From Sisyra terminalis (lineage: Eukaryota; Arthropoda; Insecta; Neuroptera; Sisyridae), in the NCBI GenBank assembly GCA_958496175.1, contig OY292279.1:7874001-7938000 (forward strand): a stretch of DNA of 64,000 nucleotides, read 5' to 3'. Positions 1-58,080 of the stretch are shown here, piece after piece. The notes under the pieces are model-generated. The model ran no database searches. It was given only the letters and a program-made list of their open reading frames with translations, and was not told the DNA's origin. Position 1 is the first letter of the stretch, and every line of letters starts with the position of its first letter. The position numbers and the translations under genes are program-made.

Positions 1-200
1 ATATATTTATTTCTTGAATTTAAATTGAAAATATTTAATTTGTTGTGAATCAAGAAGCCTGATGAAGTTAGAATACGTAACGAAACGTAGCTAGTTTGAA
101 TATTTTATATAACAAAATATTTAATACAAAAAATATTTTATATAAAAAAACCGATCTTAAACAACCTGAATTGTCTTCTTATTTGGAAAAATATATCATC
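1..200 (+). mobile_element. Hammerhead-bearing short element, family A, cut by window start
   Basis: The segment matches the element at 3971-4201: the same AT-rich lead, the same ribozyme core, and the same right end reading GATCTTAAACAACCTGAATT followed by a TCTTCTT-type tail. The left end lies outside the window. No ORF is present, so it would be non-autonomous. By its ribozyme and size it is most like a retrozyme or the terminal part of a Penelope-like element; that assignment is inference. Confidence 0.6.
51..98 (+). ncRNA. Hammerhead ribozyme motif A1
   Basis: The core CTGATGA lies at 59-65. Helix II is GTTA (67-70) with TAAC (78-81) around a 7-nt loop. GAAA (82-85) runs into ACGT (85-88), then A89 as the predicted cleavage-site nucleotide. 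Helix I is AGC/GCT (56-58 with 90-92), an internal loop, then CAA/TTG. Helix III is only the self-complementary ACGT, so on the known behaviour of Penelope-type hammerheads it would cleave best as a dimer. All invariant core positions are kept. Confidence 0.7.
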
Positions 201-1226
201 ATAACTTTTCTAAAACTATTCTTTGTAGGCTTTTAACCTTCGAAGCGTTTAATGCACCATTTAATGGCAGATTTTAGAGGAGAATGTGCTCAAGTGGAAT
301 TTTAATATCTTAATTAAGAAAATTGTTTTGCTGTAAGTTGTTTTTTCTTTTAAATTTTTAATGTTCACGAGTAATTTTTAAGTATCAGTCATGGTAGACG
401 GTTTAAAAGCTCGATGAGATGTATGTGACATTTTGCCGGGTGATGGCTGTCGTTTGAATAATTAAGTAGAGGAGGTAGTTGCAATAAGGGACACTACGCA
501 CACGGAAGTAAGTAGAGCGCGTCGCGACGGCCTCACCGACGCTCACATCCTCTGGGGACCCATTTCACCACCACCGGCGCGTGTGTTCACGTGTTGAGTC
601 CGTAACGGGGCGTAACAACCCCCCCATGTCTCTCAAACTTGACAAGAAATTTTCTTATACTTCACAACATTAACCTCCATTAAAAATAGCCGCAGCAAAA
701 AAAAAAAACATTGAAAATTATCAAACAAAAGTTGGGGATACAACAAAAAAAAAGTGTTTTTTTTTTCGCAATGACATATTTTCTGATAAAATGTAATAAA
801 CAAGACAAGCTTGGCTGGAAATTCTTTCTACTTCACCCTTAAGTAAAGATAAAAAATGTGATAGATGATGGAACATTCGAGTTGTGTTCCATTTTCGCTC
901 CTGCTCGTTTTATGCCAACGAAAAAAAAGTTGTTAACATTAAAAAAAGCTCACACAGATGGGACACAAAAATTCAATATTAAAATTGTAAAAAAAGTCCT
1001 TTATTTACGATCAACAGATTACCCCTGTGTTGGGTTTCCATCGTAAAAAATGGTACTAATGAAGTTACAATTGCATAACTTTGTATACATCTATGCCATT
1101 TTTTTTAAATCCCTACTGTTGTTTTCTTTCCATAACCATTAAATTTAAATCTTAAATAACTTTACCTTAATTATTTTTTCTTCATTTATGTGTTGATTAA
1201 TTAATAAATGTAAAGATCTGATGAAT
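201..1226. other. No gene seen; contains a GC-richer block
   Basis: Mostly AT-rich sequence. The stretch 480-620 is much richer in G and C, with CpG-containing runs, and stands out from its surroundings. A short ORF at 858-1046 has no recognisable domain and looks like chance. Nothing else is supportable. Confidence 0.5.
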
Positions 1227-3443
1227 GGATCTTACCTTGTTTATATTGTTTCTCATCTAAGATAGCCAAACATTTAATCTAACACCCCTAACCCCTATAG
1301 TATCCATATAATGGGGATGACAACTCTTATTGTAAATATTTTTTTCTCAGTATCTATTGAAGATATTTTAATGAAATTCAAACTATACATGACTATCGAT
1401 AAACTAAATATAATATAATTTTTTGTGATTTTGGCAATATTAGACACTAAAAAAAGTAAAGTATATTTTTGGGGGTAGTTTTTTATACCAACCTCCAAAA
1501 TGACACTTAACAAAAAATATATTTTATATGTTAATTAGTAACCTATCATATGTTAAAGATACAAAATATTCAAATTAGTGGAACACAGTTTAAAAAATTT
1601 AAAATCATTAAGGATACATAAATGCATATCAATTTTTACCATATCCTTTATTAACACCTGTGAACTTTCTCTATATCAATCATCATAAATACGTTCTCAA
1701 AACTTTTAAATGACGACAAAATATGTATACGAATAAATAAACTAAAAATATAACTTTAAATAATATAAAATATTTCCGATATTATTATTGCATTTATAAA
1801 AGAGCGTGAAAATCAGCAGAATACAATGTAAGAATTGTTTAATAATGAGAACTTGAATCAGCTTAGAAAACTATTTACGAAATTTTTTTCAACTAGTGTA
1901 ATGAATTTTCCAGAACTAAAGTAAACTGACCTTAAAATATTATTTACTGGCACTTATCAACTATAAAAAGCAGTATATTGTTTTTTCTAAACTATTAAAT
2001 AACAACGAATTAACTCACAAATTTTTAAAATATCACGAAAATATTATAAATATAATGGGAATGCATATTAATGGGAAAACATATAATTTATTTACTAAAT
2101 TCGAACACTTCTGACGAAATTCGAGGATATAAATATGATTGGGTAAATAGGAATAGAACAGTAGACTATTACGGTTATGAAGCAACTTTTATTTACTACT
2201 TATCACATACTTGTTATAAATCAAAAATTATAAAAGCCGCTGAATTATTGACCTACATGTTTGATGTGATTAAGGGTGGATCAGCATCAAAACGTAAAAA
2301 AATGACTTTTTTAAAACTGCTGTCATTTTTTTTTATTTGTCCCGATATGTCCCCCTCCTCCCCCTTTTACAGCGCTTTGAAAAAGGGTCTTCAAAAATGA
2401 GGTGGCAAACGGGAGACAAGTTTTCTCGGAAACCAGAAGTCGAATCATAATTTTCTAAAGAATGTAGGTTTTGGTATTGCGTCTTCTTGGTACTGAACCT
2501 CAAAAATCCGCAAAAATTGAAAATTCACAAATTGACGCGATTTTGAAAAAAAAGTTAAAAATACGACCTTTTTTTGGACCTTTCTCCCTTTCCCACTTTG
2601 AGGGGGGGAGGTTTGGCCAATTTCAGAGATTCAGTACCAAGAAGACGTGTTGAACTATAACACTCTCCAGTTTCAAGTTAATCCGTCGGATAGTTTCTGA
2701 GAAATCTTGTCTCCCAGTTTTAAAAAGTTGATTTCGAGAAAAACGCATTTAAAGCTTTTTTAAGATATTTTTTTATGTTGTTATCAATTTATTCAATTTT
2801 TAACAGTGAAAATACATTAGTCAGCTATTTCAATCCTTTTAACACGTTATTCTTGAATGTTATAAGAAGACATTTATGGAAAAAAAAAAAATCGATTTTT
2901 TTTTCTGACGGTGATCCACCCTTAATATAATTACTAATGCTGAAGAAACCAGTAACGATACGTAAATTTTCATTAAAATTTAGCTATCCGTAATTATTTT
3001 TATATTTTGAATAGGTATTTGAATTAATTATATCACATAATTTTATTTGACCTAATACTTTGATTTTATTTTTTTTAAACTATGCTCCACCAATTTGACC
3101 ATTTAGTAACTTTAAGATATGATAGCTAACTAATTGACATATAAAATATATTTTTAGACGGTGTCATTTTGGAGGTTGATATAAAAAACTACGCCCAAAA
3201 AATATATTTATCGTTTTTAACAGTTTCTTATATAGCGAAAATTCTCAAAAATAAATATTAAAATTAGTTTATCGATAGTCATGTATAGTTTCAATTTCAT
3301 GAAGATACCTTCAATAAATACTGAGAAAAAAATATTTACGTCAAGGGTTGGTACCCCCATTATTTCCATACTATAAGTATTAGGGGTATGAGATTAGTTT
3401 TATGGTTATCTTAGATGAAAAACAATAAAAACAATGTAAGATC
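1227..3443. repeat. Long inverted repeat, arms about 335 bp, 1.5 kb apart
   Basis: The left arm (1227-1560) begins GGATCTTACCTTGTTT and includes the CAGTATCTATTGAAGATA and CATGACTATCGATAAACTAA sections. The right arm (about 3105-3443) is its diverged reverse complement and ends in GTAAGATCC. Between them lie AT-rich sequence (1560-2270), a TTAA foldback element (2274-2921) and unassigned sequence. A third, truncated copy of the left arm occurs at 3951-3970 plus 4212-4365, split by another insertion. It may be a degenerate TIR transposon whose coding interior is gone; the 2071-2400 ORF inside shows no known domain. Confidence 0.65.
2274..2921 (-). mobile_element. TTAA-flanked foldback element, copy 1
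   Basis: The ends are GGGTGGATCA and TGATCCACCC, bordered on both sides by TTAA (2270-2273 and 2922-2925). The same element occurs in the opposite orientation at 18788-19493 and 41364-42036. The interior is largely self-complementary: TTCTTGGTACTGAACCTC pairs with a matching segment near the other side of a C/G-rich centre, and the GGGAGACAAG and CTTGTCTCCC blocks are also inverted. No transposase is encoded. The TTAA target suggests mobilisation by a TTAA-specific transposase, for example piggyBac-like; that is inference. Its left end has mutations (ATCAGCATC for ATCACCGTC). Confidence 0.8.
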
Positions 3444-3960: not shown

Positions 3961-3970
3961 CTTGTTTTTA

Positions 3971-4201
3971 ACGATGATAAAATTCAGATCTCAGCTTTTA
4001 TTTTTTTAAATAAGAAGACAATTCATGTTGTTTAAGGTCATTTTATTATATCATTATTTATTTATTGAATTTAAATTGAAAATGTTTTATTTTGTGAATC
4101 AAAAAGCCTGATGAAGTTACAATACGTAACGAAACGTAGCTAATTGAATAATAAAAATATTAAATAAAAAAAACCGATCTTAAACAACCTGAATTATCTT
4201 T
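3971..4201 (+). mobile_element. Hammerhead-bearing short element, family A, with 10-bp target duplication
   Basis: The element is bordered by CTTGTTTTTA at 3961-3970 and again at 4202-4211. The host is a third copy of the 1227-1560 arm. In the intact arm the sequence runs uninterrupted (GATCTTACCTTGTTTATATT), so an empty site is visible within this window. Inside are a 5' piece inverted relative to the 3' end (CATGTTGTTTAAGGTC against GATCTTAAACAACCTG), an AT-rich lead, a hammerhead motif and an A-rich segment. It encodes nothing. The 10-bp duplication with an empty paralogous site is strong evidence of insertion; the retroelement mechanism is inferred. Confidence 0.75.
4099..4147 (+). ncRNA. 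Hammerhead ribozyme motif A2
   Basis: CTGATGA is at 4108-4114. Helix II is GTTA (4116-4119) with TAAC (4127-4130), loop CAATACG. GAAA is at 4131-4134, ACGT at 4134-4137 and A4138 is the predicted cleavage-site nucleotide. Helix I pairs TCAA and AGC (4099-4107) with GCT and TTGA (4139-4147) around a symmetric AA/AA internal loop. The core is intact and helix I pairs better than in motif A1; the substitutions between the copies fall in the helix II loop and in helix I. Confidence 0.75.
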
Positions 4202-4365
4202 CTTGTTTTTATTGTTTTTCATTTGAGATAACCATACACATAAGCTCATACTTCTAACCGTTATATTAATGCAATAATGGGGGTGACAACCCTTAATGTA
4301 AATATTATATTTCTCAGTATCTATTGAAGATATCTTCATGAAATTGAAACTATACACGACTATTA

Positions 4366-9936: not shown

Positions 9937-10455
9937 TCTATACTTATATATAAAATTCTTACGTTTGTCTGTTCATTTCGATTTTGAACCCAATTTTAGG
10001 GTAAATATTTGTTTCAAGAGGCGCTTATTCCTAATTTAACATTTTTAAAATTTTTGTCTGTCTGTCTGTGTGTGTGTCCCGATTTAACTAAAGAACGGTA
10101 CAACCGAATTTAATGAAATTTGGTATTAAGATACAACACAATTTCCTACAGACTATAGGCTACATATCATTCCCAAAAAATAAAAAAGAAAGGTGTTTCT
10201 TAGGGATGAAAACATAAATTGTTACACTAGAGAGGTGAGTTATTTATCATTGGAAAGGTAATTTAAAGTTAGAAAATAATTTGTAAAAATATTTTTAGTT
10301 GAACTGATAAAATGCACAGTTACTTGATTATGGAGGAACTGAGGAACTGGGTTCCATGCATTTGAACAAATTTCAATTTCGCCGTAGTTTTATACATTTC
10401 AGTAGTGTAAAAGTTGAGACTTGAGACAATGAAATGGGATTTCTACTAATATTCT
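9937..10455 (+). mobile_element. Helitron-like element A, uninterrupted copy
   Basis: It starts TCTATACTTATATATAAAAT after an A, the expected 5' context (insertion between A and T, 5' TC). It continues with the TGTCTGTCTGTCTGTGTGTG tract, AAAGAACGGTACAACCGAAT, and ends near CTACTAATATTC. It carries no Rep/helicase. It defines the pre-insertion form of the split copy at 5870-7885. The 3' hairpin and CTRR end are not clear, so the right end is approximate. Confidence 0.55.
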
Positions 10456-10570
10456 AAATTTTTTAAATAAGAAGAAAATTCAGGTTATTTAAGATCTTTT
10501 TGTTTTTTATTTAATATTTTATCGTAACTTTCTCAGGCTTCTATAACAAATTAAAATAATTACAAAATAT
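10456..10570 (-). mobile_element. Family A hammerhead element, relic
   Basis: The minus strand shows CTGAGAAAGTTACGAT where intact copies have the full core, then the A-rich segment and the GATCTTAAATAACCTGAATT right end. The part holding helix II and GAAACGT has been deleted, so no ribozyme activity is expected. Confidence 0.5.
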
Positions 10571-12060: not shown

Positions 12061-12061
12061 A

Positions 12062-12660
12062 ATTATCAGGAAAAGCTTTGCTTAGTGTAAAGCTTTTTAT
12101 ATATTTATTATTGATTTCGATCCTGTAGTTTATCTACACTTTATTGTAGTTCCGAAGATTTGAGAATCTTTTTTAATATTTAAATAAATTACACTTGGTT
12201 CTTTGTGCAACGTTTTGCAGTTTATTACTGCTTTTTTTGTTATAATCTATTTGTTAAATCTTATTCTTTATACATTTATACTGCTATTTGCCTATAATCA
12301 CTTGAAAATGCAGTACAGGAAAAGCTTTGCTTAATGTAAAGCTTTTTTATATATTTATTATTGATTCCCATACTGTAGTATATCTACAATTTGTTGTAGT
12401 TCCGAAGATTTGAGGATCTTTTTTCATTTTTAAACAATTTACACTTTCTTTTTAACTTTTGCGCATCGTTTTGCAGTTTATTACTGCTTTTTTTTGTTAC
12501 AAACTATTTGTTAAATTTGTTAAATGCTATTATTTATTCATTTGTACTGCTATTTACCTATAACTGCTTGAAAAAGCAGTAATTAACTGCGAAACAACTG
12601 CAAATTCTCGGAACTACAACCAATGGAAAAAACCAATAAAGCTTTTTAATCAAACTACTG
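12062..12660. repeat. Two tandem copies of about 245 bp plus an inverted partial third
   Basis: CAGGAAAAGCTTTGCTTA begins at 12069 and again at 12313, followed in both by GTAAAGC, TTGTAGTTCCGAAGATTTGA and TTTTGCAGTTTATTACTGC. A reversed, shorter version follows at 12560-12630 (GCAGTAATTAACTGC, then TCGGAACTACAAC). On the minus strand the GCAGT-loop-ACTGC hairpin followed by AAAACG or GAAAC resembles helix II of a decayed hammerhead, but CTGANGA is missing. Confidence 0.6.
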
Positions 12661-13022: not shown

Positions 13023-13031
13023 GGTTATACA

Positions 13032-14330
13032 GACATATAGTTTCCAACTTTTGGGCACTGCATCAAATTCTAACATTGAACTCTTCATAAACTCCTACTT
13101 AAAACACGTGGACTAATAATTAATTAGCATACTTGTTATACAGATTGGTCCAAAAGTCACTAAAGGGCTTAAACTTCCTAAGACTGGTTTTATAATAGAA
13201 TTTTCATTTTATTTTTATCAGAAGTTCTACTAAGTAAGTGAAATCCACCAAAATTGTTTAATTTTTTGGAAAACCAACATTCAATTGTAAAAATGCAGCA
13301 AGCATACCTTTGGCATTTCAATGTTAGAGATGCACCTTAAGAGCCAATGATTCTAAAGCCATGCTTTTGAGAACCAGGGTTCTATAGGTAACCTTCCACG
13401 TACCGGAAGACTACGAACATGTAGTACAAAAAAAGTATGGATCTTTTAAGGGATAGTATTTAAAAATACCCGGAATATTGGTGGAAAATTTTGCTTTTTA
13501 TTAAAATTGAAAAATGTGAAAAATCGTTTTTGTAAACTGGAGTCAAGAAAAAATTTCATTTTTCTGGAGTTTCCGGTTTAAAATGGGGGAGTTGGTAACC
13601 CCAACAAAATTCGGAGATTATTTTTGTAAACTGGAGTCTGGAGAAAACATTATTTTTCTGGAGTCTCCGGACTAAAACTGGAGAGTTGGTAACCTTAGTA
13701 TTGGACGATTTTTATTTTTGGTAACTTCTAGAATAAGTCCAATTAAACAGTTCTCTAATTTAAATGAAACAACAAACAGTGGATGAAAAAAGAAATTCTG
13801 TACAAGTTAAAATGGAAATGTTGGAAAACGTGGTTTGAAAGAAAATCTAATGTTAAATGTAAAGCAGAGGTGAAGCAATAAAGAAAAAATGCAAAGTTTA
13901 TATAAACGTTCAACTTGGCAGAGAACTAACCTGATTAAATGATTAAATCATTGAAAGTACTTACACGAATATGTACGAGTATGTTAACACATGAACAAAA
14001 AGTTGTTGTACCTGGTACTAATTGGATTGTACCTTGTACACGCATTGGCATATAGTTTTTTTTCCTCGGGATTTTCCACGTTAAAATATTCAAAATTCAA
14101 GACGAAGCCTGTCATCCTTGCATTGGGTTGAATTTATGACGAAAAAAAAAACGTAGGGAATTGACATTTTTGGGGAATTTATTTTTTATGTCGACGAACG
14201 CATGAGTTGCGATGGGGCTATGACACTTTTGATCGGTCTTGATAGGCCTGAACTGAATTGACATCCCTCTATACTGATGGCATGCTTACTTCACTCGTAC
14301 CCTACTTAATATAATATACATAGAGAAATA
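13032..14330. other. No gene seen; contains a 95-bp tandem repeat
   Basis: TGTAAACTGGAGTC, followed by TTTTTCTGGAGT and GAGTTGGTAACC, occurs at 13531-13597 and again at 13626-13695, a diverged two-copy tandem repeat. The rest is AT-rich with no recognised feature. Confidence 0.5.
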
Positions 14331-14720: not shown

Positions 14721-15159
14721 CCACACCATACACACAAACTAAGACCAAAAGAAAGAAAGTTCAATTCAAAAACGACCACATCGCAACATGAAAGCAATGA
14801 GAAAGGAATTTTCTAGTTGGAAAATTGTTTATAACTCCCATTCTAATAAAACCTTCAATTTCCAATTTCAATCAGTTCAGAGAAAAGCAAAGAATTTTCT
14901 TTCGCAAAAAAGAATCAATTAGGAAACATTTAGTTCTTAAGAAATGTTACTTCAAACACAACACGTATGTTAAACATGTTTTACTACTTATGTTAAATAA
15001 AAATAAGATTTTTTCGCTGACTTAGAACAGTTATACTGTGTATACAATATATAGAATATATTGCGGTCCAATTTATGTAGTATAATTTAATATAATAACA
15101 TATAAAAATCATAGCATAAACATAAATTTGAACAGAAGTTCAAGCAAAAATATTCGTGA

Positions 15160-15215
15160 CAAATTGCCCGGATACGTATTTCGATTGCCAAGCAATCTTC
15201 CTCAGAGGTCATCAA
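15160..15215 (-). ncRNA. Hammerhead ribozyme motif B1
   Basis: On the minus strand CTGAGGA is at 15205-15199. Helix II is GATTGC with GCAATC (15197-15192 with 15188-15183). GAAA is followed by the palindrome ATACGTAT (15179-15172) and C15171 as the predicted cleavage-site nucleotide. The core is intact, but helix I pairs poorly in this arm (ACCT against CGGG). Confidence 0.6.
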
Positions 15216-15312
15216 GTAGTTTGGATCACTCCGTAACTGCTTGTGATAATTTGTGATGATGCTTTGTGAATTATCACAAAGCAGTTACGAAGTGATTCAA
15301 ACTACTTGATGA

Positions 15313-15353
15313 CCACTGAGGAAGATTGCTTGCCAATCGAAATACGTATCTGG
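15313..15353 (+). ncRNA. Hammerhead ribozyme motif B2
   Basis: CTGAGGA is at 15316-15322. Helix II is GATTG (15324-15328) with CAATC (15334-15338). GAAA is at 15339-15342, then ATACGTAT (15342-15349) and C15350. Helix I pairs CCA (15313-15315) with TGG (15351-15353). Helix III is an 8-nt palindrome, so two strands could pair more stably than in family A. Confidence 0.65.
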
Positions 15354-15499
15354 GCAATACGTCACAAATATTTTGTTTGAACTTCTGTTCAAATTTATGT
15401 TTATGGTATGATTTTTATTCATTATTATATTAAATTATACTACATAAATTGGATCGCAATATATTTTATATATTGTATACACAGTACTTATGTTAAAAT

Positions 15500-16631: not shown

Positions 16632-17541
16632 AACAAAGTTGAACTGGATTACAAAATTTCAATCAAATCAGTAAAGCTGTCTTTAAATTCAAACCATAAG
16701 TGAAATGAGAATAAAATATTGGTGCAACTATCTAGATTAGACTTGTTTGTGACCTTTATACTTATTGTTGGCGGAACACGCCTAAGATGTACCTGAAAAC
16801 AAAATATTATTAAAATCAATAAACCTGTTCATCAATCGTACGAAAGAATGCAGATCGGCAGAAATTTACGTTCGAATTATCAACCTTTGATCCATAATTA
16901 TCAATATTGTGACCGAAACCGGCTGAATTCCATGCTGATGTGAAAATGCAAACGATTCCCTGCTCTCAACGGGTGGTCTCAAATAGCATCGTGAAAGCTT
17001 GAAGGCCAAAATGAGAGAATGGCAGCTTTAAATATATCTTTTAAGGAATTTGGAACCAGTTTGAGGTATTTATTATTTGTTGTAAATTATAATAACATTA
17101 ACACCTGTTTCAAAATCCATTAGTAACACCTCCGAGTCTAATTTTTATACACATTTTGGCCTTCAAACTTTCACTACGTTATTTGATACCACCCGTTGAG
17201 AACAAGTAGAGAATCGTTTGCAATTTCACACCAGCATGGAATTCAGCCGGTTTTGGTCACAATATTGATAATTATGGATCAAAGGTTGATAATTTGAACG
17301 TAAATTTCTGCCTATCTGCATTCTTTCGTACGATTCAAGAACAGGTTTATTGATTTTGATAATTTTTTGTTTTCAGCTACATCTTAGACGTGTTTCGCCA
17401 ACAATAAGTATAAAGGTCACAAACAAGTCTAATCTAAATAGTTGTACCAATATTTTATTCTCATTTCACTTCTGGTTCGAATTTAAAGACAGCTTTACTG
17501 ATTTGATAGAAACTTTGTTATCAAGTTCAACTTAATTTTCT
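16632..17541. repeat. 0.9-kb palindrome with 385-bp arms
   Basis: The left arm (16632-17013) and right arm (17152-17541) are reverse complements at high identity. For example GGCTGAATTCCATGCTG pairs with CAGCATGGAATTCAGCC, and AGTAAAGCTGTCTTTAAATT with its inverse. The spacer is 138 bp. There is no clear target duplication and no ORF beyond 61 codons. It is probably a foldback element or an inverted duplication. Each arm contains a TTTTGTTTTCAG tract on the outward-reading strand. Confidence 0.8.
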
Positions 17542-20440: not shown

Positions 20441-21968
20441 GTTCGTTTCTCCAATTAATTTTCCTCAAGTCAATAAGCCAAAATATATTGCCGCTTCCCC
20501 CACTCTTATATAAATCAATAAGCTATCGAAACCAAATAATATTCGAATATTTCCACGGAAAATACAACGTGCAAACAACTACTAGATTTCCATTGTGTTA
20601 TCGCTTTTTGGAGAAAACCTATTAAGACAACGAATAATATAAGAAACGTTAGGATAGGTATTTAAAAGCGGGGGATAAAAACAACCCCGAATGCAAGCGG
20701 AGAGTGGGCTCAACGACGGTCGATGGCCACTGAGGGTAGTGAAGAGCTTTTAAATAAGATGCTAACGGATATTTTCGCTTTGTATGTATAATATCAATAA
20801 CACTAGCATACAAACAAAACCCGACAGACTTCCTTAGCATTGAATAAAAGGGCGGCTGATAGGATATCATGATAATAATGCTTGGGATTCCCATGGGACG
20901 ATCGATTGTACATGGTTAATGAGATGGGATAAGGCTGCACTGTCTGAAGCAGCAACGGGAATACAAACAGGAACATTACCGTTATAACCGGGGGAGAGAA
21001 CAAGTCCCACGGGATAAAGTGGCCTCCCCACTATTAAACCTCACCTGAAACAAACACGGTTTTAGATACCCGTTAAAAGCAACACGGCGAAGAGGGCAAG
21101 CCAAGAAAATAAGAGTATGAGTTGTAAAAAAGTTTGATATGGTCGGTAACACCGGGACTGGGAACCCGGCCGTTTTCTTATACAAAGAGATAAGAAGTTG
21201 GCAATCGTGCAACCGTTTCTTTACTTCCTATAAATTTCCGATCAGAAACGATTCCGAGCCGATTATAAAAATATTTTCTACATATTTGCTTTTAAATTAT
21301 TTCTACATCATTTCAAAAACTATTATTTTCGTCTTTACTTTCGCCAGAAATGGAAGAGAATGTGGTGGCGCACATAAATAATTCACGATTTTCCATATGG
21401 ATGAAAATTTCGTGCTATTTTCCAATGTAGTGAACTCTCTATTACAGTTTGGAGGCTAGGCGGAGGAGATTTATTCTGAAAATTTTCTTCGAGAGTATCA
21501 AAAAGAACTTTCCGTACACATTGGCCGTAATACTTTGCGAGAATAATAATTTTCTTGCGTTTTTATTTATTGCTTAATCATTGAAATGATTTTACGTTTA
21601 GTCTTTGGAGTTTGCAGCTTTTTATCCAAGGTTGGTGGGTTAACGAAATAATAAAAGCTTATTTCCTAATGTGGAAACTAAAATTTATGTTCAAGGTTAT
21701 TATGACGATTTTGAACATTTCTTAATAACATCCCTTACAAGACGTTACGTAAAAGGTCACTTCTTAAACGTTCAATAACCCTCATATGCATGTAGTACAT
21801 TTGTTGAACTTAAACAAGCTCAGTTTTGAGGGAGCTTTAAAATTTTTCATACCATTCCAATTCTATACCAATAAAATTTATAGGAATTCTGTTCAATTTT
21901 CTTTATCATATCTCTAATATATTTTTTGATAAATGTAATTAAGAGCAATGTTTTAACTATTAAAATTA
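20441..21968. other. No gene recognised; single-copy-looking block
   Basis: 20640-21470 has mixed composition with overlapping short ORFs on both strands, none with a recognisable product. On the minus strand near 21043 GTTTGTTTCAG meets GTGAGG, a weaker version of the recursive splice motif. 21470-21968 is AT-rich. Confidence 0.35.
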
Positions 21969-22923: not shown

Positions 22924-22936
22924 TAATAAAAATATT

Positions 22937-27538: not shown

Positions 27539-27827
27539 GACTGGCTCAAAAAAATCATTTTTTTTTTCTTTTTTTTTGAAAAGTAAATCGAAAATATTGT
27601 TCAAGGTGACAAAAAAAAAACATGGGGAAGACTTGAGCCCTTAATATAAAGAGGTCTATCATCATTATTTCGATTTTTAATTTGTATTTCAATTATTGCG
27701 TCAATGTTGTCAAACTATCAAGGTAAAAAAAATCAGCACATATCCATGTTGTTTAAGTCTTTGTCTTTTTGAATATAATAATTAAACTGTGGGCAATAAG
27801 GACGAAACTTCTTGTGGAATCTTATTT

Positions 27828-27876
27828 ATTTTAAGGCGAACGTTTCAGCAGTAATTCCTGACTTCTTCAGGACTCA
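27828..27876 (-). ncRNA. Hammerhead ribozyme motif C1, damaged
   Basis: The minus strand has CTGAAGA (27870-27864), GTCAG with a mutated partner around loop GAATTA, then GAAACGT and T27839. The catalytic core is present. Helix II is weakened (CTGCT where CTGAC is expected) and helix I is not well paired. Confidence 0.5.
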
Positions 27877-27926
27877 AAATTTATGACATATTTTATGCCA
27901 TTTGTTGAGTTATTTTTAAATTTTGA

Positions 27927-27964
27927 GCCCTGAAGAAGTAGGGAATAACTGACGAAATGTTGGC
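27927..27964 (+). ncRNA. Hammerhead ribozyme motif C2, damaged
   Basis: CTGAAGA is at 27930-27936, CTGAC at 27949-27953 and GAAA at 27954-27957. Helix I pairs GCC (27927-27929) with GGC (27962-27964). GTAGG replaces the GTCAG expected to pair with CTGAC, and ATGT replaces ACGT after GAA. C1 and C2 carry different lesions, so the common ancestor probably had a full motif. Confidence 0.55.
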
Positions 27965-28789
27965 GATAAAATAAATAAAATACCACAAGAAACTTCGTCC
28001 TTATTACCCACTATTTAATTATATTATCAGCACATATATTTATTGAAAATTAAAGTTCCTAAAAAAAAAACGTTTACATGAAAATTTTTGTCAGACACGC
28101 CGTTTCCGAATAATCAAGCTTTAAACATTGATATAATTTTTTGGATTTATTTTCTTTACTTTGGAATTTTGAAACTAGTGAACAAAAAAATATATAGAAA
28201 TGAACAATATAGATTCTTGAAGGAAATTTAATGTTCTACAAAAAAGATCTCTTAACATTTCTACATAAAATCACTTTTTCAAAAGTTATTCACAATTAAA
28301 GTTGAATGAAATATTAAATTGTTTTTTTCGTTGTTAACCCAATTTTGTAAGATTGATTTTATGTAAAAATGTAAATTAACCTTTTTTGAAGAGCATTATA
28401 TTTTCTTCCAGAATCTATATTGTTTATTTTTATATATTTGTTTGTTCGTTAGTTACAAAATTCCAAAATAAAGAAGATAAATCCAAAAATTATCTCAATG
28501 TTTGAAGCTTGATTATTCGAAAACGGCGTGTCTGGCAAAAATTTTCAAAGAAACGTTTTTTGTAGGGAATTTAATTTTCTATAAATATCTGTGCAAATAT
28601 TTTTTTTACCTTGATAGTTTGACAGCATTGACGCAAAAATTAAAGCACAAAAAAAATCGAAATTAAAGATGATAGACCTCTTAATATTAATATTAAGGGC
28701 TTAAACCTTCCCGATTTTTTTTTGTCACCTTGAACAATATTTTCGATATACTTTTCAAAAAAAAAAATCAATTTTGGAGCCCAGTCTAA

Positions 28790-31596
28790 TTGTCATGATT
28801 TTAAAATTTTGGAATTTTCAGGATCTTATCATTTAAACAATTTGAAATATTCCAATGAAGGTATTTTATTTGTATAGAAGAGTTGTACCAAAAGCAATGC
28901 CTTGAATTGCGAAAAAAACCCTTAATCTCTTATCAAAGTAAATCCTATTTATTGATACATAAACGCATTTGATTGTTAGAAGTTTATATCAGACTTTTCG
29001 GGGCAAAAATAATGACAAATTAGTTAATAATTAGGTTAAAACCAATCAACTGATCTCTTTTGTAGTTAAAGTTTGAAAATAAAGTTACACTTTTATTAAT
29101 TTTTGTGGATCTTAGGCCAGAATTAAGGAGTTAAACTTTTTACATTTTGAGAAGCAATGAAACTCAATTTGTTTATAAGTCTTTCGAAATTGCTTCTATT
29201 TAATATCAATTTATTGTGTTTTTTCAAGCAAAACAGGTCCAACCATCACATATTTCTTAATGGAAACATCATGTTTCGTATATTTTGTTTAGCACATTTT
29301 TCTTCCCGTTGTAATGGAAGTGAGGGCAAAAAAAAACCGCTTGTTCCTGATGAAATCTAAATAGCTTTTAGTTTTCCAGGACTTACGTGTGCAATATGTT
29401 TGTGCATCGTGCTGGAAAAATGATTGAGTGTTATGTAAATAGCTCTTCATCATCACGATGTCAATAATCTATATCGGTCGTAAAGTACCTTTTGCGTAGC
29501 TCTCCCTTCGTCATCAGAGAATTTCAACCCGTCACTAACATCCTTATCGTCTTCTTCGTTATTCACACAACATCGTTCTCAACTCAGGTCGGTCATTTTC
29601 ATTATTACATAATTGCATCTGTCGCTTTCAGAACTTCTTCAATCGTATCAAAATCTTAGACATTTTTTTTTCTTGGCTAAATTTTTCCTTCAAAATAAAT
29701 ATTCTTTCAGACATTGTATAACAATAAAATTTGTTAGAATATTGACAAAAACAATTCATGGTTTTTTTCTTAAGCAGCTTAATAATTTTCTTCTTCTTTG
29801 AAATCGTTTGGTAAACGCATTTGTAAATTGAGCTTTCAAACAAAAATGTATTTAATACGCGCCTGAGAAGTTATACTAATTTGGTTTAAGTTGTAATTGG
29901 TGTTATTTGGTTTCATAAAACTAAAAGTTAAAAAAAATGTTTTAATCTAGTGCCATAACATATTCCGGTAGAGCCTGAAAAGACACATCAGTTATTAGTA
30001 TGTGATAACTAAAATATGACTTAATTATAAACACAAATTTTGCTTTTATTAGCAATATAATAGGCAAAAGTATGTATGTCAACAAAGATAGCAAATAAAG
30101 AATGTAAACATATGCATGTGAGTGTAATTCCAATATAAAAAATATTCTCTCAATTTTGCACTAATTAATTGTTGTCATTGGTTTCAACTGTCATTCCGTT
30201 TTCATTCAATTGCCAATTTTTATCATTTGTTAGTTTTTACAGTGTTGGGAAGTGAATATTTCCGAGAAAATTTCTTGTTTTCAAATAATAGATTAAACAG
30301 GTGGCCCATGTTTCTTTCTGCGACTTCAATATTAGACAACATTACAATTTCTACTTTTTGATTTTTTTTTGTTTTTTCAGTTCAAATGTCGCATGATTTG
30401 CTCTTTTGGTGGAAAATTTTCATAGTGATTTTACTTACTCGTAAATTAAATTAAAAACATATTAGAAAACGCAATGTTGCAAGGTACTGATATAGCTTAA
30501 AGAGACATGAGCTTAATTGGCTATTTATACATACTGTATAGTATTACATAGTATAATACCCAATTGATTATTTATATAAAGTTATATCTAACATATATGA
30601 ATTAACTGTTTATCAATATAGATAGGGTCACTGGTTGGAAAAACATTTATCGAAAACATTTACCATATAGAAATGGATTGAATTCATAAACTTGCATGTA
30701 TATATTTATTAAAATGGTTAAAGTATAGAATGTACAAGTATTAGAAACGGGTTGGTAGGAATCATACATTCAATTTGTCTAAATGGTCAATTCTGTGGAC
30801 CTACAAGATGTATAAATAGCGACATAGTACAAATTAAATTTAAACAATAGTAATTATGTAGTATAATCTATGTATTGAAACTAATTTCTTATTCAAATAT
30901 AGAAAAATACCAATCGACTTTCCTTGCATTATTTTAAAAATAGCATTGAATAATTTTTAAAAAAACCTTTTCTTAACGGATTTAACCCAATGTGGGTTAA
31001 AGTATAGAATAAATAAGTTTTAGAAATGGGTTGGTTAGAATGTATGGGGGAAATTTTGTTCAAGTTGGTATTTTTTTGCGTATTATTTTAATCGTCCGCA
31101 AAATAACATTATTTTCACCACTTTTCGAAATCTGTCGTATTTGCAATTGTAAGAAATAAACATTTACTCAAAATATTCAAAGAAATGGATGTAATTCATG
31201 AATTCATACCTACAAATAAAATAAAAGGCCAAAGTAAACTATTAAACAATATTGTTTATACTGAATACTGAAATAATGAGTTCATGTTAATATATTTTTT
31301 GCAGAAGTTTCCAAAGCAATTCTCTTTTGATAAAACATATTTCTCTTCAATGTACAAAGTAATTTATTCAACTGAAGAATTGTCCCAAAGATATAAGAGT
31401 AGAGATGGAGGCTAGTAAATTTAAAATCACATATAATTAGAAATGAGAAAGATGGTTTTAGTTTAATAAATTAAGTAAAAAAATTGCATTTGTGTTCTAG
31501 GAGGTACATATATTATCTAAAACCAAATTTTGTTATAATAAAATGTTCATGGATAATAATATATATATGTCTTTGAGATTCAATTAAAAAATTACT
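28790..31596. other. No gene seen; diverged duplication inside
   Basis: AT-rich. 29370-29630 has mixed composition. A section containing GGTTAAAGTATAGAAT and GGGTTGGTAGGAAT-like sequence occurs at 30717-30772 and, diverged, at 30994-31050; AAATGGATTGAATTCAT at 30671 and AAATGGATGTAATTCAT at 31181 may belong to the same duplication. Confidence 0.4.
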
Positions 31597-31645
31597 TTAT
31601 TACGACGCGTTTCAACAGTTTTTGACTGTCATCATCAGGTAATAA
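31597..31645 (-). ncRNA. Hammerhead ribozyme motif D, best preserved
   Basis: On the minus strand helix I pairs TTATTAC (31645-31639) with GTAATAA (31603-31597), seven perfect pairs. CTGATGA is at 31638-31632. Helix II is ACAGT with ACTGT around loop CAAAA. GAAA is followed by the palindrome ACGCGT (31610-31605) and C (31604) as cleavage-site nucleotide. Every invariant core position is kept. The 5' helix I strand grows out of an AAT/ATT microsatellite (31640-31665). No mirrored partner or clear element boundary was found here. Confidence 0.8.
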
Positions 31646-32850
31646 TAATAATAATAATTATTATTATTTTGCCATTTTTAAACAAATTTCATATAAGTTA
31701 TTTGTTTTATATCAAAATGTTCATATTTTGGTACAAGTCGTTTCTACACATGTTACTCTCTGGTAACATCTCATTCTCTACTTTATTTCTTGAAACATTT
31801 ACGAAATTTTTCCATTCACGAATTGGTTAATAATTCAATTTTGGCTAATAATTGATCTTTTGGCGCTACATATTAATTATGTCCGATTAATTCGCGAATT
31901 AAACTAAAAGCAGAATAGAAAATGATATGTTGAGTTAGTGGTTTGTATAAAAGCTATTTGTACCCATGGTTTTATAAAATAATGTCTTCTTTTTTCCAAA
32001 TTATTCTTTACATATTTAGACTTAGTACATTTAGTCAATATTCAATTCACTAAGACGTTTACTTTTACCTATTTTGAGCAATTTTTGTAGAAAAAAATAA
32101 TGATTTACCTTCTTTTGCTCTCGTAAAATTGTGTGCAATTTTTTGAATAATTGTACTAATATTTATTAAACTTTATAGTATAGTTTATCAACTGCAACAT
32201 AAAATATTACTAAATACGTATGTATACTTAAGAAACTATAAAATCTAAGACTTCCTTAAAAAAATTATCCTATTTCCAATATTATTTAAATCGCTAGACA
32301 ATTTTTCACTGTTGTCGATTTTGTTTGGTCATAAAAAATCAGCAATAATAAGAAAATTTTATATTTTATCAAACTAGATCTTTTCTGAAAATATCTGTAA
32401 AAGTTTTGAGGTTCCTAGCAATAATAAGGAAATATGAATTATTTGTTTCAAATTCACTTTACCTATATTGTTTATTATTTTACTTTTGGGTATAAGATCA
32501 TGATTTATATCCATCGCTTTAAATATTTCGAGTTAATGTTTGTTAGTTAATGAAACCGACAAGTCGACGTGGTCGACTAAATTACGAAGTTTTCAATACT
32601 ATCAAAATAGCTCCCAAATATTAAAAAAAAATATATAAAAAATTTAGTCTCATCATTTTTTTCTATAACGCCGCTATGGAAGTATAACTTCAAAAAAAAG
32701 TGACAACTTTAAAGTGAAACATTTTTTACAAATGAGATAATTAATTGATCAATGTTTTGTTACACATATAACCGCTAATATTTGACAAGTTATCCCCTTT
32801 TTGGATTGGCTATCATTCTTTGATCTGTCCTGAAAAATTGATAATAAAAA
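31646..32850. other. No gene seen
   Basis: A short AAT repeat at 31640-31665, then AT-rich sequence with no ORF, repeat relation or splice-bounded exon that I could support. Confidence 0.4.
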
Positions 32851-32854: not shown

Positions 32855-33775
32855 AAAAGTTATGGAAAATTGATAAAAATATTCAGAGGACTAGGAAAAT
32901 ATAATAATCAGTCAAAACTATTTATTACATGCGCGACGTTTCGGCTCGGTTATTGAGCCTTCCTCAGGCGTTCTGAAATATCTTAACCAATTTTTTATTA
33001 ATACGAAGAATACAAACAATTATTACAATGAATTCTTTCATACCGTAAATAATCGCTTTAACCTTGTTAAAAATAATCATTGTCAATTCATTTTTATACG
33101 GTACAATTAATTGTTTGTATTTTTGGAATTAATAAAAAATGGGCTATGATATTTCAGAACGCCTGAGGATGGCTCAATAAGCGCAAGTATGAGACCAAGC
33201 AACTGAATAAATTAAAATAAGCCCTGGTTCCAGGGTTTATTATCTCCAATTCCTCATTTCTCCATAAATTCAAATCCCAAACCATTAATCAGATAACCCA
33301 AATGCTGAACAAAAAATTCGTTACTCAACTCACAGATTCAGGAAATAATAAACAATGAAACTCACCAATTTCCCACGTGCAATATGGACTGCTAGTATTC
33401 AACTAAATATGAGTTTTGAGTTTTCCAATTAAATAAGCCAGAAAAGATATATTTTAAAATAATAATTTAATACAAGCAGAAAACAGTTTTATGGATGAAA
33501 TTCTTCAGTACCAAAATCATTCTACTATCTGCTATGGTACGTAATAGGTTTACAAACATTATTAGAGCAACTCGATCTTCAGAAAGATATCATATATTAA
33601 AAAACATTTTTATGGGGAACTTTGGTTAAAACAAATTATGTTTTTCGAACTAAGCTAAGTCTTTTATAGTTTAGAGATTTTTAAGTGCTATGTAAGCTAT
33701 GTAAATAGTTTTGACTGATTATTATTTGATCCTAGTCCTCTGAATATTTTTACCAATTTATCATCATCGAGAATC
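32855..33775. repeat. Inverted repeat carrying hammerhead family E and duplicated exon-like sequence
   Basis: The outer arms are 32860-32925 and 33703-33775: AAAAATATTCAGAGGACTAG, TAATAATCAGTCAAAACTAT and their inverses. Inside, a second inverted pair (about 32976-33062 with 33090-33162) contains ACAAACAATTATTACAATGA and TTGTTTGTATTTTTGGAATT, with a hammerhead motif at its outer left edge and a decayed one at its right edge (33163-33200). The right outer arm is part of the exon candidate at 33697-33878. Confidence 0.65.
32925..32975 (-). ncRNA. Hammerhead ribozyme motif E1
   Basis: On the minus strand CTGAGGA is at 32967-32961. Helix II is GGCTC with GAGCC, five G/C-rich pairs around loop AATAACC. 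GAAA precedes ACGT (32939-32936) and C32935. Helix I starts with CGC/GCG. The mirrored unit on the plus strand keeps CTGAGGA (33163-33169) and GGCTC but has lost the GAGCCGAAACGT part. Confidence 0.7.
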
Positions 33776-33878
33776 TGAAACTTTACAATAATGTTATGGA
33801 AAATTTTAGCCAATACTTGAACCAAACACCAAGGTTCTTCTTCTGTATAATGTTCACATACATTGACGACTATCGAGG
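33697..33878 (-). CDS. Candidate terminal coding exon of an unrecognised gene
   Basis: The minus strand shows a good acceptor: TATTTTTTCCCATTTTCAG ends at 33879 and is followed by an open frame of about 60 codons to a TAG stop at 33699-33697. The peptide begins SIVVNVCEHYTEEEPWC and includes QVLAKIFHNI, LDDDKLVKIF and the terminus NNNQSKLFT. It has a balanced, charged composition unlike the low-complexity chance ORFs around it. I do not recognise the family. The last third is duplicated in inverted orientation at 32840-32925, keeping the same frame (KLIKIFRGLG, then NNQSKLF), which then reads into the ribozyme element. No upstream exon was identified. It could instead be part of a transposon protein. 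Confidence 0.35.
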
Positions 33879-35616: not shown

Positions 35617-36219
35617 CAGAGGTGTGAAAATTATTTGACTCAAGACAACTCAAGAGAAAAAAATCACATTTTTGTTTTTAAGTGTTATAAATTTAAAAAT
35701 TACAATCATTTCACTCATCTAATATTTTGTGATTTTGTGTGGTACCCTTTATTGTTTATAATTTATTTTTCTCATCCTGGCATGCTCTATACTATTTTTT
35801 TCATTTATATTTTATTATGATGCCAAATCTTATTGAGTTCGGTAAACAAATCCATTGTGTTGTAATAGTTTAATTTTTTAAGTTTTTTCTTCACAATGAC
35901 CCAAAAATTTTCTATAGAATTAGCATCAGGATTATTTCCTGACCAAGAAGGCACATCAATGTTAGAATTTTTGAGGAAATCCATAACTTTTTTGACTTTA
36001 TGGCAAGAAGCTCCATCCTGCATAAAGATACAATTTTCTTCCGAAAACCACTCTTTAGTTTGAGGAAATAACCTCATTTCCAAGACTTGTATATATTGGT
36101 CTTGCTTTATAGTACCTTCCACAATGTTCCACGATGTTGGATGTTTTATAGTCTGGGCGATACATTGCTGGAAGAAACTAAAAATCTTCTTTTGAGTCTA
36201 ATAATTTTTCACACCTCTG
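35617..36219 (-). mobile_element. Internally deleted Tc1-like element
   Basis: TIRs start CAGAGGTGTGAAAATTATTT (35617) and are inverted at the other end, finishing AATTTTTCACACCTCTG (36219). TA flanks both sides (35615-35616 and 36220-36221). At 603 bp it is far below the 1.3-1.7 kb usual for Tc1 elements. Only the C-terminal half of the transposase remains, so it would depend on another copy to move. Confidence 0.9.
35805..36185 (-). pseudogene. Tc1 transposase, C-terminal catalytic remnant (DD34E)
   Basis: This encodes the distal part of a DDE_3-type transposase that cuts and joins element ends at TA targets. FMQDGASCH holds the second catalytic Asp (residue 36 counted from MEGTIK). NPDANSIENFW holds the catalytic Glu (residue 71), leaving 34 residues between, the Tc1 spacing. 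The first Asp and the N-terminal helix-turn-helix domains are missing. Just upstream, the open frame reads IKHPTSW joined to NIVEGTIK; full-length Tc1 proteins have a longer stretch here, so this marks the internal deletion. The frame is otherwise open to a natural-looking end (NKIWHHNK), suggesting a fairly recent element. Confidence 0.9.
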
Positions 36220-43800: not shown

Positions 43801-43802
43801 TA

Positions 43803-47435: not shown

Positions 47436-47437
47436 TA

Positions 47438-50400
47438 TACGTAAGAGTTAAATTGGTAGGCAGGTAAGTGGACCGTAGCCGGTGAATTTAGCTCAAATAA
47501 CAATAGCGGGTTAGCAAGATTATAACGTTGGTTTTTTGGAAAAAAAATGTATTTATTTGGTCAATTACCTTGAAAAAAGCACAGGACTGCCATTAGCAAT
47601 CATTAAATGGCCCTACTGGATTGTTTGGTTGAGGAAATATCTAAGGAATGGCTTTTTATTTAAAGAAAGAAAGAAAGTGATTTTTTATCAAAACATTACA
47701 TTGTATCACAAGCTTTTGGTTACGATGTCAAAATTGCATGATTTACGCTTTTCTCTGGTCTTCAAGTTTGGTCAAAAATATGCCCAAAGTAGCCAGAGTA
47801 ACTTAGGACAAAAGTTATCGAAAGTTATCAGGAAGTTATGGAAATGTTAGGGAACCTCTGGAATGATTGCATCATTCTTGAAAGAGACTATGTGAATGAA
47901 TAAAAATGGATTAATCTAGAAAAATTGCTTTTTCCTCATGGAATAAGGAACCGGTTGAAACTAAGCAGATAATTTTTTGTCAGTAAGTTCTTCAAAATTT
48001 TATAAAATTCATCCAAATACCAAAATTAGTCATTGATAGGTAAGTCTTTTAAAACCAAATAATCCTATACCAATTTCTAGAAAAATTTAAAATATGAGCG
48101 TTTTGGAAAATTTAGAACAACCGCAGTGTAATTTAATTGATCAACTTTAATAGGCAAGAAATTTAATTATTTATTTGTTTTTCTATGTTTCCTAGCCTTT
48201 ATAGTAATTTCGGTAAGCTATTTTTTTTTCAAACTCATCAGGCATATAAATATTCAATTGAATCCTATTAAATTTTTAAATGAAAATATTTATTTCAAGA
48301 AAACCACTTTCGTGCATCCCACTTTAATTTCTTTAAGAGACACTTTCCCAAAGAAAAAAAAAAACCCTCCATGAAAATTTATCAGTAATACATGTGGCCT
48401 CATTTAAGCACTTCAAGGGTAATTTATACGTCTTAATAGCCTATAAAAATGGCGCGTGGTAATGGGACATGGATTTTAAAAGGTACCCACCCGACCGAGT
48501 GCGGTGGGTTTTCCCACAAAGTCAAAAATGCCTCTCCATTAGACAAAATTCCCCAGAATATCACTCACCGTTTAATTATTCCAAAATAGAGACCTCACTT
48601 TCGATTCATTTTATAAATCTATATGCAAAATAGCGAAAATAAATTCTCCTGAAACGCACTGAATGATTGAACGACCCCTAGTTAGGGGTTTTCTTTGGGT
48701 AGATTGAAAGTGGTGCGTGACTCACGTAACTTGTGCGTGATTACAAATGTTCATTGAAAAGTTCTTGGGTGAAAGACAAAGTTATTGCTGGCGGCAATTT
48801 TCATATATTGTTATTGTCCACCGAGAGACTCGTAAGGCTGTCTTTCAACGAAATGTCGCGATTCACACGTCGGAAAATACTCAACTAATGGAATGAAAAT
48901 ACGCACGAAAAGAGAAAGAACTCATTAATCAGACCACCAGCTCTTATCTATCAACCTATTTTCATTCTCTTATTAATTGCCCTGGTGTAGGCTTTAGCAT
49001 TTTAATCACAGATCATAGACTTAAGTTGGAAAACTAGGCATAGGCGAATCGAAAAATAATACCACTTAAGGAAGTTATAATAAATTAGTTGCTTGAAAAT
49101 AAATTAGCTTTCATGTACATTTATTTAAGAAAGAAATTGAGTCAGAAATAATAAATAAATAATTTAATAATGTTAAATTTAACTTAAAATGTGAAATTTT
49201 TAGATCCTATTCTTCTTTATTGTATTAAATATATAACTCTTTTTATTGACAAGTACCTTTGTCCAAAAGCCTTCTATATTTTCTTATAACTTTATACAAA
49301 TTGTAATAATAAAAATGATTTCACAAATTTGAAGAATCTCTTTCTAGAAATATGCAGAATAATCATAACAACATAATTATTGAAGAATAAATAAGTTTGG
49401 TTCTTTAGAAAAAAAAAAACTGTATTTATTGTCAATTTTAGAAATTATACCTTATTTTGGAAATTTCATGGACATAAAAATCCTTGTTTATCTCAAGTTT
49501 TGTATTAACTAAGCAGCTTTTTCGGAATCTTAAAAGTGCAACTGAAATGCATCGAATCCTTGTAAAAATGTAAGTTAGCAATCTAACAAATCATTAAGAT
49601 AAAAGTTTTGTCGTTATAAAATTATTACATTTATAGGTTTAAAACAAGCTACGTTTAAGGATAGCCAAAAAAGCTCACAGGTAATAAAATGGTGACATAA
49701 CTTAATAAAGATCCATGTTCAATACTAAGATAGTACTTGCCAACATGTTGAAAGTGATTTAGCAATTATTTTTTTTGAAAAGTTTAAATTAATAGAAATG
49801 ATTTAATCGGGTTTTAAATTAATTGAAAATTTTAGGACATTAAAAGGAGATTTTCTACCTTCAAGAAGTTGAATTAAAGACAAAAAAAAATGAGTTTTTA
49901 AATTGTATTATTATTAAGGGTCAAATATGGACATTTTACAAGAACTTAAGGGGAAAAAATTATGTTAGGCTTGGTTAATTATTATCATGGACTTCAACAT
50001 GATCACTAAAACAAAATTTCATGATTTAATGATTTAAAGATTATGCTTTATATCTGCAGAGATCAAAAGAGTGCTATCTACAACAAACTATTACAACTTG
50101 AGAAGTCCATCACGGCTGATTAGAATTAAGGATGCCACATTGCGCATAAAAACATCGAAATTTTTAAAAGCTATACATTGATATAATAACATCAAAACTT
50201 ATGAAAAATATTTCGATTTCTTTTCGATCGTTTTTACTATCATTCTTATATGTTTATATAAAATATTTCTGAAATAATAAGAGAACCAATACTATAAAAA
50301 TTTAAAGCTCATCAGTTTATAATCTCAACCGTAGATTTGTAAAAAAACGAGGTTTACAAATCTACTCTCCTTTCAGAGAAATTTATTTGTGTTGGTGTAG

Positions 50401-52155: not shown

Positions 52156-52159
52156 TTTT

Positions 52160-53300: not shown

Positions 53301-53307
53301 TCATAAG

Positions 53308-54790: not shown

Positions 54791-54982
54791 ATTGGTATTA
54801 GAAAATCTTTAACTTCAATTACCAACGTAAAACCTTAGCAGTTACAATATTAACGAAAGAAGCCCATAAATATCGATCGAATAGAAAAAATTTTACTTTT
54901 AGCCAAATCTTTAAATTTAGAACCATGATTTTTGCAAACTAAATAATTATGAATAAAATTTCCTGCTCTAATAGATGGAACA

Positions 54983-55270: not shown

Positions 55271-55279
55271 GTTTTGTAA

Positions 55280-57600: not shown

Positions 57601-57614
57601 GCTAGAAATTTAAG

Positions 57615-58080
57615 CAAAATATTTTTTTTCCGCTGACTTTGAACAGTTATTCTGTGTGTACAATATATAGAATATATTGCGGTCCAATTTATGTAGTATA
57701 ATTTATTATAATTATATATAAAAATCATACCATGAACATAAATTTGAACAGAAGTTCAAACAAAAATATTCTTGACGTATTGCCCAGATACGTATTTCGA
57801 TTGCCAAGCAATCTTCTTCAGTGATCATCAAGTAGTTTGGATCACTCCGTAACTGCATTGTGATGATTCATAAGTATGATGATTCACTTTTGTGAATCAT
57901 CACAAAGCAGTTACGGAGTGATCCAAACTACTTGATGACCACTGAGGGAGAATGCTTGGCAATCGAAGTACGTATCTGGATAATACGTCAAGAATATTTT
58001 TGTTTGAACTGCTGTTCAAATTTATGTTTCTGGTATGATTTTTATAAAAGAATATATATACATTTATATATATTTATACA
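57615..58080. mobile_element. Inverted dimer of hammerhead-bearing units, family B, second copy
   Basis: It matches 14998-15484: the same left extension (CCGCTGACTTTGAACAG), the same arms (GATCCAAACTACTTGATGA with its inverse) and the same centre type. Flanking TAGAAATTTAAG (57603-57614) and TAGAAATTCAAG (58081-58092) give an 11 of 12 target duplication. The right arm departs from the 15-kb copy after GATTTTTAT and ends in an AT repeat. It integrated separately from the other copy. Confidence 0.75.
57780..57830 (-). ncRNA. Hammerhead ribozyme motif B3
   Basis: On the minus strand CTGAAGA is at 57821-57815. Helix II is GATTGC with GCAATC. GAAA is followed by ATACGTAT (57795-57788) and C57787. 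Helix I starts TCA/TGG with one wobble. The core is intact. The mirrored plus-strand unit has CTGAGGG and GAAG instead of CTGAGGA and GAAA (57942-57980), so it should be inactive. Confidence 0.65.

Follow-up and report, generated by a model that had tools for sequence, protein, structure and literature searches.

Minimal type I hammerhead motifs of five families, probably carried by Penelope-type elements lacking open reading frames, in a 64-kb window of the Sisyra terminalis genome

What kind of element brings hammerhead motifs with unrelated stem sequences into one short stretch of an insect genome, and what might the motifs do there? The question is raised by 64,000 nucleotides of Sisyra terminalis DNA (assembly GCA_958496175.1, contig OY292279.1, positions 7,874,001 to 7,938,000, forward strand), hereafter the window, in which an earlier note had listed hammerhead motifs at seven places. 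All seven were found to hold the motif described, and the window carries in total 12 hammerhead-like copies at eight loci, falling into five families, A to E. We consider it probable that these motifs are minimal type I hammerheads located in the pseudo-long terminal repeats (pLTRs) of Penelope-type elements devoid of open reading frames (ORFs), in an arthropod genome. The copies not listed before are the right-arm motif of element B2 (B2R), the third A copy (A3) and the second copy of element E (E-left), the last two of which are missing their 3' half. The 12 copies are as follows, the arms being those of the palindromic elements described further below.

51..98, plus strand: motif A1; cleavage predicted after A17 of GAAACGTA; homology to the other A copies ends at 184
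4100..4147, plus strand: motif A2; 5-bp helix II; helix I AGC/GCT plus outer TCAA/TTGA
10455..10549, minus strand: A3, third A copy; 3' half of the motif deleted
15163..15213, minus strand: B1 left-arm motif; mismatch at the first pair of helix I; helix III ATACGTAT
15308..15358, plus strand: B1 right-arm motif (B1R); helix III ATACGTAT; predicted cleavage after C17
27830..27878, minus strand: C left-arm motif; helix II partly decayed
27922..27970, plus strand: C right-arm motif; helix II partly decayed; helix III ATGT
31595..31646, minus strand: D, solitary motif; helix III ACGCGT; 7-bp helix I; inserted base T
32927..32975, minus strand: E intact-arm motif; helix II GGCTC/GAGCC; helix III ACGT; predicted cleavage after C17
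33155..33189, plus strand: E other-arm motif (E-left); deleted from the 3' strand of helix II through the cleavage site
57779..57829, minus strand: B2 left-arm motif (B2L); intact; 6-bp helix II
57935..57985, plus strand: B2 right-arm motif (B2R); decayed (CTGAGGG; GAAG)

The bare core pattern CTGANGAN{6,24}GAAA occurs 10 times in the window against 2.84 +/- 2.08 times in shuffled sequence, a count reached in 1 of 100 shuffles and only ~3.5-fold above expectation, which on its own would favor a short core that has arisen by chance in AT-rich DNA. Nine of the 10 matches, with their CUGANGA and GAAA core, are motifs of the five families; the tenth (48208-48241, minus strand) has no helix II and was set aside as a chance match. 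A strict descriptor, in which the core must be accompanied by 4 bp or more in helix II and by a palindromic helix III whose final U is followed by H, returned seven matches in the window, six of them with a helix I of at least 3 bp (complete motifs), whereas 300 Markov-randomised windows yielded six matches altogether and no complete motif. Both C copies fail this descriptor because they are decayed. In a looser, scored scan, six window matches scored at least 16, compared to 0.117 per randomised window; the top random score in 60 windows, 26, was above four of these six, and neither A1 nor C was matched in the window, making single copies less certain than the set. Chance-like short cores occur elsewhere, too: among viral-contig stretches with a fixed GAAACGT core (30 + 85), none of the 115 records met the stem tests. 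We conclude that the motif set lies far beyond chance, individual copies less so, and, in view of the randomised windows and of the covariation and sliding controls that follow, a chance origin is rejected as barely conceivable.

The fold described in the earlier note was recovered in its core and stems, with the addition of one feature that had been overlooked, namely a single additional base that separates A9 from the first pair of stem II, present in all seven descriptor matches and, by inspection, in the decayed copies too. This base is A everywhere except in D and the deleted E copy, where it is T, and the textbook form without an insert at this junction occurs in none of the seven descriptor matches. 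Published alignments are reported to tolerate as many as one or two bases at this position (PMC10085705), and the spacing of the present motifs falls within that limit; the extra base may lower ribozyme activity. In D (31610-31638, minus strand), the additional T makes A9-T-G read as ATG, in a frame that stops after 6 codons. The division into five helix II families likewise held, save that the GTCAG/CTGAC pair ascribed to C turned out to be a composite of two arms, the left keeping GTCAG and the right CTGAC, with neither copy intact. Helix III is ACGT in A, E and C left, ATACGTAT in B and ACGCGT in D, each self-complementary, and H17 is A, C or U across families (U17 in the C family), as had been proposed; helix III of the C right arm reads ATGT. 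Loop II includes AATA in A, E and C right and AATT in C left, AATA being absent from that of B and D.

Covariation was assessed on an alignment of five rows, made up of the related pair A1 and A2, the related pair C right and C left, and E. As the MAFFT alignment misplaced B, its four rows were excluded together with D, leaving five of 10 rows in use. In these rows of families A, C and E, 90% of stem I and stem II cells pair compared to 65.5% upon shuffling, and the covariation score is 0.838 compared to 0.325, neither value being reached in any of 500 shuffles, in line with the covariation on a constant core that the earlier note had claimed. Sliding the partner strands lowers the score to 0.113 or less. 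A constant core with covarying stems points to selection on the fold, a result that does not in itself separate cleavage from protein binding. When folded alone, A2 and C right are predicted to adopt a hammerhead with an open helix III, which for A2 is the minimum-energy prediction, and in D and E both stems are present as well, the core acquiring additional pairs.

The sequences surrounding the motifs were found to be organized as follows, a target-site duplication (TSD) being listed with the element that it flanks.

3999..4208, plus strand: A2 element; ~65-70-bp arms in inverted orientation, with 76% identity, on either side of a single motif
14998..15484, no strand: B1 palindromic element, 487 bp; one-sided tail at the left end
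14985..14997, plus strand: B1 left TSD TACTTATGTTAAA; exact, 13 nt
15485..15497, plus strand: B1 right TSD TACTTATGTTAAA; exact, 13 nt
27744..28025, no strand: C palindromic element, 282 bp; left tail contains CTTAAACAACATG
27732-27743 and 28026-28037: C TSD ATCAGCACATAT; exact, 12 nt
32872..33792, no strand: E palindromic element, 921 bp including an inferred ~515-bp insertion; right tail of ~38 nt
32859-32871 and 33793-33805: E TSD GTTATGGAAAATT; exact, 13 nt
57615..58080, no strand: B2 palindromic element, 466 bp; left tail, shorter right arm
57603-57614 and 58081-58092: B2 TSD TAGAAATT(T/C)AAG; 11/12 match, 8 exact

Each arm of the B, C and E palindromes bears an outward-facing motif, deleted in one E arm, so that pLTRs stand in head-to-head inverted order in B1, B2, C and E, partly in A2 and not in A1, A3 or D. 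A tail is found on one arm only (B1 left, ~37-39 nt; C left, ~28-31 nt; E right, ~38 nt), the no-tail end of E being ambiguous by ~5 nt, and the two B2 arms differ by 68 nt. Both arms of the A2 element end in CTTAAACAAC(C/A)TG, the 3'-terminal word common to A and C. From the start of stem II to the 3' end, the distance is 118 nt in A1 (to the end of homology, A1 having no TSD), 119 nt in C with its tail, 88 nt in C and E without a tail, and 93 nt in A2, which is missing a stretch present in A1. Among the five elements compared, the TSDs of B1, C and E are exact and that of B2 matches at 11 of 12 positions; each of these four words occurs just twice in the window, and the chance of an exact repeat of at least 12 nt, estimated from 20,000 random 60 x 60 zone pairs, is 0.0063 per element. 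Element C lies in a repeat, four other window stretches of which continue across the insertion point and lack the element. One of the E arms is interrupted by the inferred insertion at ~33184-33701, 58 arm bases recurring at 33702-33759 with 93% identity. When the B arms were compared with the B copies, 36 sites proved to be singletons and informative sites numbered 2, 1 and 0, a star-like pattern that favors neither self-priming nor insertion from two templates.

Self-comparison of the window by BLAST (E of 1e-10 or better, gap of at most 300, span of at most 1500; limits chosen afterwards) revealed seven close inverted repeats occupying 5.8% of its length, within which lie four of the eight motif loci (binomial P 0.0007, B1 and B2 being one family). 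Three of the seven carry no recognised hammerhead (16636-17533, 21965-22927 and 28030-28594), the latter two belonging to the repeat family into which C inserted. Further side observations on the elements are a perfect 11-bp palindrome at the B2 centre (57877-57902; TGATGATTCAC-TTTT-GTGAATCATCA), as reported for Penelope inverted junctions, and, in the E insertion (33184-33701), a hairpin-like start (AAGCCCTGGTTCCAGGGTTT) with a similar 8-9-nt sequence at both junctions.

Short, ORF-less, repeated palindromes could also be miniature inverted-repeat transposable elements (MITEs) that carry a hammerhead-like sequence and are moved as DNA by a transposase, and a DDE_3 transposase fragment (35805-36197, minus strand; Pfam E 1.6e-8), presumably Tc1/mariner-like, does lie in the window. 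The ends of B1, C and E are, however, asymmetric, with a tail of ~28-39 nt on one arm only, and their TSDs measure 12-13 nt, whereas TSDs of most DNA transposons are usually shorter. Moreover, several sequence-unrelated families would each need to have acquired an identical RNA fold, and the stem-II-to-end distance of A1 and C matches that of a Penelope element. We therefore regard transposition as MITEs as decidedly unlikely.

Even less probable, in our judgment, is that the motifs belong to retrozymes, non-autonomous retroelements in which the hammerhead processes tandem copies into small circular RNAs. Metazoan non-LTR (long terminal repeat) retrozymes are described as short, ORF-less, low-GC elements with type I hammerheads (PMC7229834), and the present elements resemble them in being small, ORF-less and of type I. 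Those retrozymes, as described, form direct tandem repeats with canonical hammerheads, whereas the elements reported here are dispersed palindromes; no head-to-tail tandem copies occur in the window, copies of a family lying 4-43 kb apart or inverted, and the elements end away from the cleavage site.

The arrangement finds its closest parallels among Penelope elements. In the rotifer Adineta vaga, the pLTRs of Penelope are reported to lie head to head and to meet in palindromes; one of the two inverted pLTRs may bear a 31-bp tail at its 3' end, the TSDs measure 8-10 bp, and self-priming at insertion was proposed as the origin of the inverted pLTRs (PMC3846280). Inverted pLTRs, a junction palindrome, an optional one-sided tail and a TSD are thus shared with the Sisyra elements, which differ in their 12-13-nt TSDs and in having no ORF; hammerheads go unmentioned in the passages of that account dealing with inverted pLTRs. 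A second parallel is PAc, a Poseidon element of Anolis carolinensis, the ORF of which begins at hammerhead stem II and reverse transcription of which is reported to begin 111-118 bp downstream of the ORF start, in a stem loop rich in AC, its tail being the stretch that separates two start sites and both target strands being cut and extended (PMC11167929). The 118-119 nt from stem II to the 3' end of A1 and C, the two ends separated by a tail and the presence of an AC-rich word close to the end in A and C all agree with what is described for PAc; the latter is unlike the present elements in being autonomous and tandem, with a hammerhead inactive without protein, and in its spacing, which is exceeded in B. 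Minimal type I hammerheads in Penelope pLTRs may, according to a 2020 review, act as dimers (PMC7761336), and those described so far share with the Sisyra motifs the type I layout, the CUGANGA/GAAA core, a near-absent helix III, the location in pLTRs and the expectation of dimer action. On the side of the differences stand the ORF-less palindromes and perhaps the extra base between A9 and stem II. Hammerheads with an extremely short stem III are reported from schistosome W-elements, too (PMC8490949). Among the papers listed on hammerheads with terminal inverted repeats or MITEs and on Penelope pLTRs, titles and abstract openings made no mention of hammerhead palindromes.

Minimal hammerhead ribozymes of Penelope-like elements were reportedly described by Cervera & de la Pena in 2014, and Penelope-associated hammerheads are said, in the title of Lunse et al. 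2017, to cleave as dimers. As judged from the letters of the DNA, the earlier suggestion of a Penelope-associated type I hammerhead with a tiny helix III draws support from the fold, the cleavage-site context and the pLTR setting; what had escaped notice was the palindromic plan of the B, C and E elements. The putative assignment of the elements themselves to Penelope derives from their architecture, the ORF being absent: the longest stop-to-stop stretch in the five elements is 33-71 aa, the combination of reverse transcriptase and GIY-YIG ORF that marks an autonomous Penelope-like element was not found in them, and we class them as ORF-less Penelope-type derivatives. A reverse transcriptase C-terminal fragment at 60129-60650, with insect relatives among the matches listed that include Cryptotermes, Acanthoscelides and Sergentomyia and that point to an arthropod genome, is one that we take to be of the non-LTR (long interspersed nuclear element, LINE) type. 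Motifs and elements are new examples of an already known kind. The density and diversity that the earlier note had called notable are less unusual than supposed, many metazoan genomes being described as holding thousands of mostly dispersed minimal hammerheads (PMC7761336).

A number of results weigh against the proposed hammerhead and Penelope identity. The descriptor, the TSD zones and the palindrome limits were all fixed after the motifs had been inspected. Rfam release 15 hammerhead families gave no match in the window at gathering score and E <=5, nor at E <=10 in 141 bases around A2; the earlier note had proposed such a covariance search and named background scores as the first half of what would refute its claim, and background is literally what was returned. 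We take the extreme shortness of helix III, together with the added base, to be the reason for this null, the searches having included no proven minimal Penelope hammerhead as a control. The covariance model R1, for which the five A, C and E rows served as the training set, gives its own members 51.6-63.6 bits. Scores for D and for three B copies are at background (9.2-10.9 bits, E 1.4-4.4) and are exceeded by those of unrelated window sites (best 17.1 bits, at 12202). The longer helix III and differing loop of B and D are not represented in R1, and with these background scores B and D rest on the strict descriptor. Two further covariation statistics were less extreme, with 6 pairs changed on both sides compared to 3.6 in shuffles (16/500) and 10 pair types compared to 7.2 (25/500). 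Unconstrained predicted folds formed both stems in four of eight monomers only, those of A1, B1R, B2L and C left failing to do so, and a full helix III duplex in one of eight dimers (B1R), C left forming 3 of 4 pairs. In full-length transcripts the motif is predicted to pair with the antisense arm (56/63 bases in B1, 48/51 in B2 and 52/61 in C), which would block cleavage, and transcripts would thus need to start within an arm. With regard to the elements, the A2 flanking repeat consists of an AT-rich 10 nt only, leaving its TSD ambiguous; neither arms nor a TSD were found for D; no Penelope reverse transcriptase or endonuclease ORF was detected in the elements or in five window ORFs scanned; and the stem-II-to-end distances of B (131 and 161 nt in the right arms, 199-200 nt with the tail) are unlike that of PAc, as is the 93 nt of A2.

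Two of the sites scored by R1, 12202 (17.1 bits) and 12560 (14.3 bits), were considered as a sixth family and rejected, as they lie in or beside a 250-bp tandem repeat and have lost the core. This repeat (12067-12581) contains a stem-loop GCAGT/ACTGC followed by AAAACG or GAAACA, with motif-like sites at 12202-12244 (minus strand) and 12560-12608 (plus strand), and may represent the strongly degenerate remains of a sixth hammerhead family, now devoid of its core. Further weak R1 matches occur at 14128, 46362, 54694 and lower; self-BLAST of 14000-14300 revealed no repeat.

How, then, might such elements have arisen if they are Penelope-type derivatives with minimal hammerheads? In a single motif, stems I and II would form with helix III left open; two copies would pair through ACGT, ACGCGT or ATACGTAT into a helix III of 4, 6 or 8 bp, and the paired motifs would cleave after A17 (family A), C17 (B, D and E) or, in the C family, U17, perhaps with the assistance of a Penelope protein. 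A Penelope-like enzyme acting in trans would cut the DNA with a 12-13-nt stagger, and reverse transcription would begin inside the RNA at one of two sites ~30-40 nt apart, which would account for the optional tail. Since both arms read outward, RNA 3' ends would meet the target and RNA 5' ends would meet in mid-element, copies joined at their RNA 5' ends yielding a palindrome with an outward-facing motif in each arm. Self-priming at insertion, two-sided priming from two RNAs and the movement of a ready palindrome are possible histories of such a structure.

Whether the motifs cleave in the cell at all is a separate matter. The predicted cleavage site is uninterrupted in 10 of the 12 copies, both of its sides being kept, and the inserted RNA would thus have been uncut at this site, or religated. 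The two 3'-half deletions were considered as footprints of cleavage and discarded: the E boundary fits the site by eye, a placement from which MAFFT differs, and that of A3 does not fit. The uninterrupted copies would suit a fold that is a relic or a structural element, copied passively with the pLTR or bound by a Penelope protein without cleavage in the cell, and the extra base beside the core would point the same way if it lowers activity. The PAc hammerhead, moreover, is reported to be dispensable for insertion in vitro and to cleave only with protein present, its mutants inserting normally and no RNA-seq reads being reported to end at the site (PMC11167929). Against a relic stand the constant core and the stems covarying across families. 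We regard a relic or structural role as a serious possibility, if one somewhat short of even.

With less confidence still, and as an unlikely but specific proposal, the palindromes may be fossils of two-sided target-primed reverse transcription, with helix III as a dimer interface that pairs two pLTR templates. One Penelope complex would then cut both strands with a 12-13-nt stagger and prime copies of separate pLTR RNAs from each end, these copies being joined where the RNA 5' ends meet, and the dimer interface would assemble the two RNAs in a single complex. If this were true, the role of the minimal hammerhead would be to pair templates for insertion, not to cut them.

The role of minimal Penelope-type hammerheads was called a mystery in a 2020 review (PMC7761336). 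By combining a single constant core with five different stem sequences within 64 kb, the Sisyra window provides a compact natural test set for hammerheads of this type. In addition, its palindromic copies, with their TSDs and alternative 3' ends, record a mode of insertion that may be compared with that of PAc, for which the first in vitro activity of any Penelope-like element was reported (PMC11167929).

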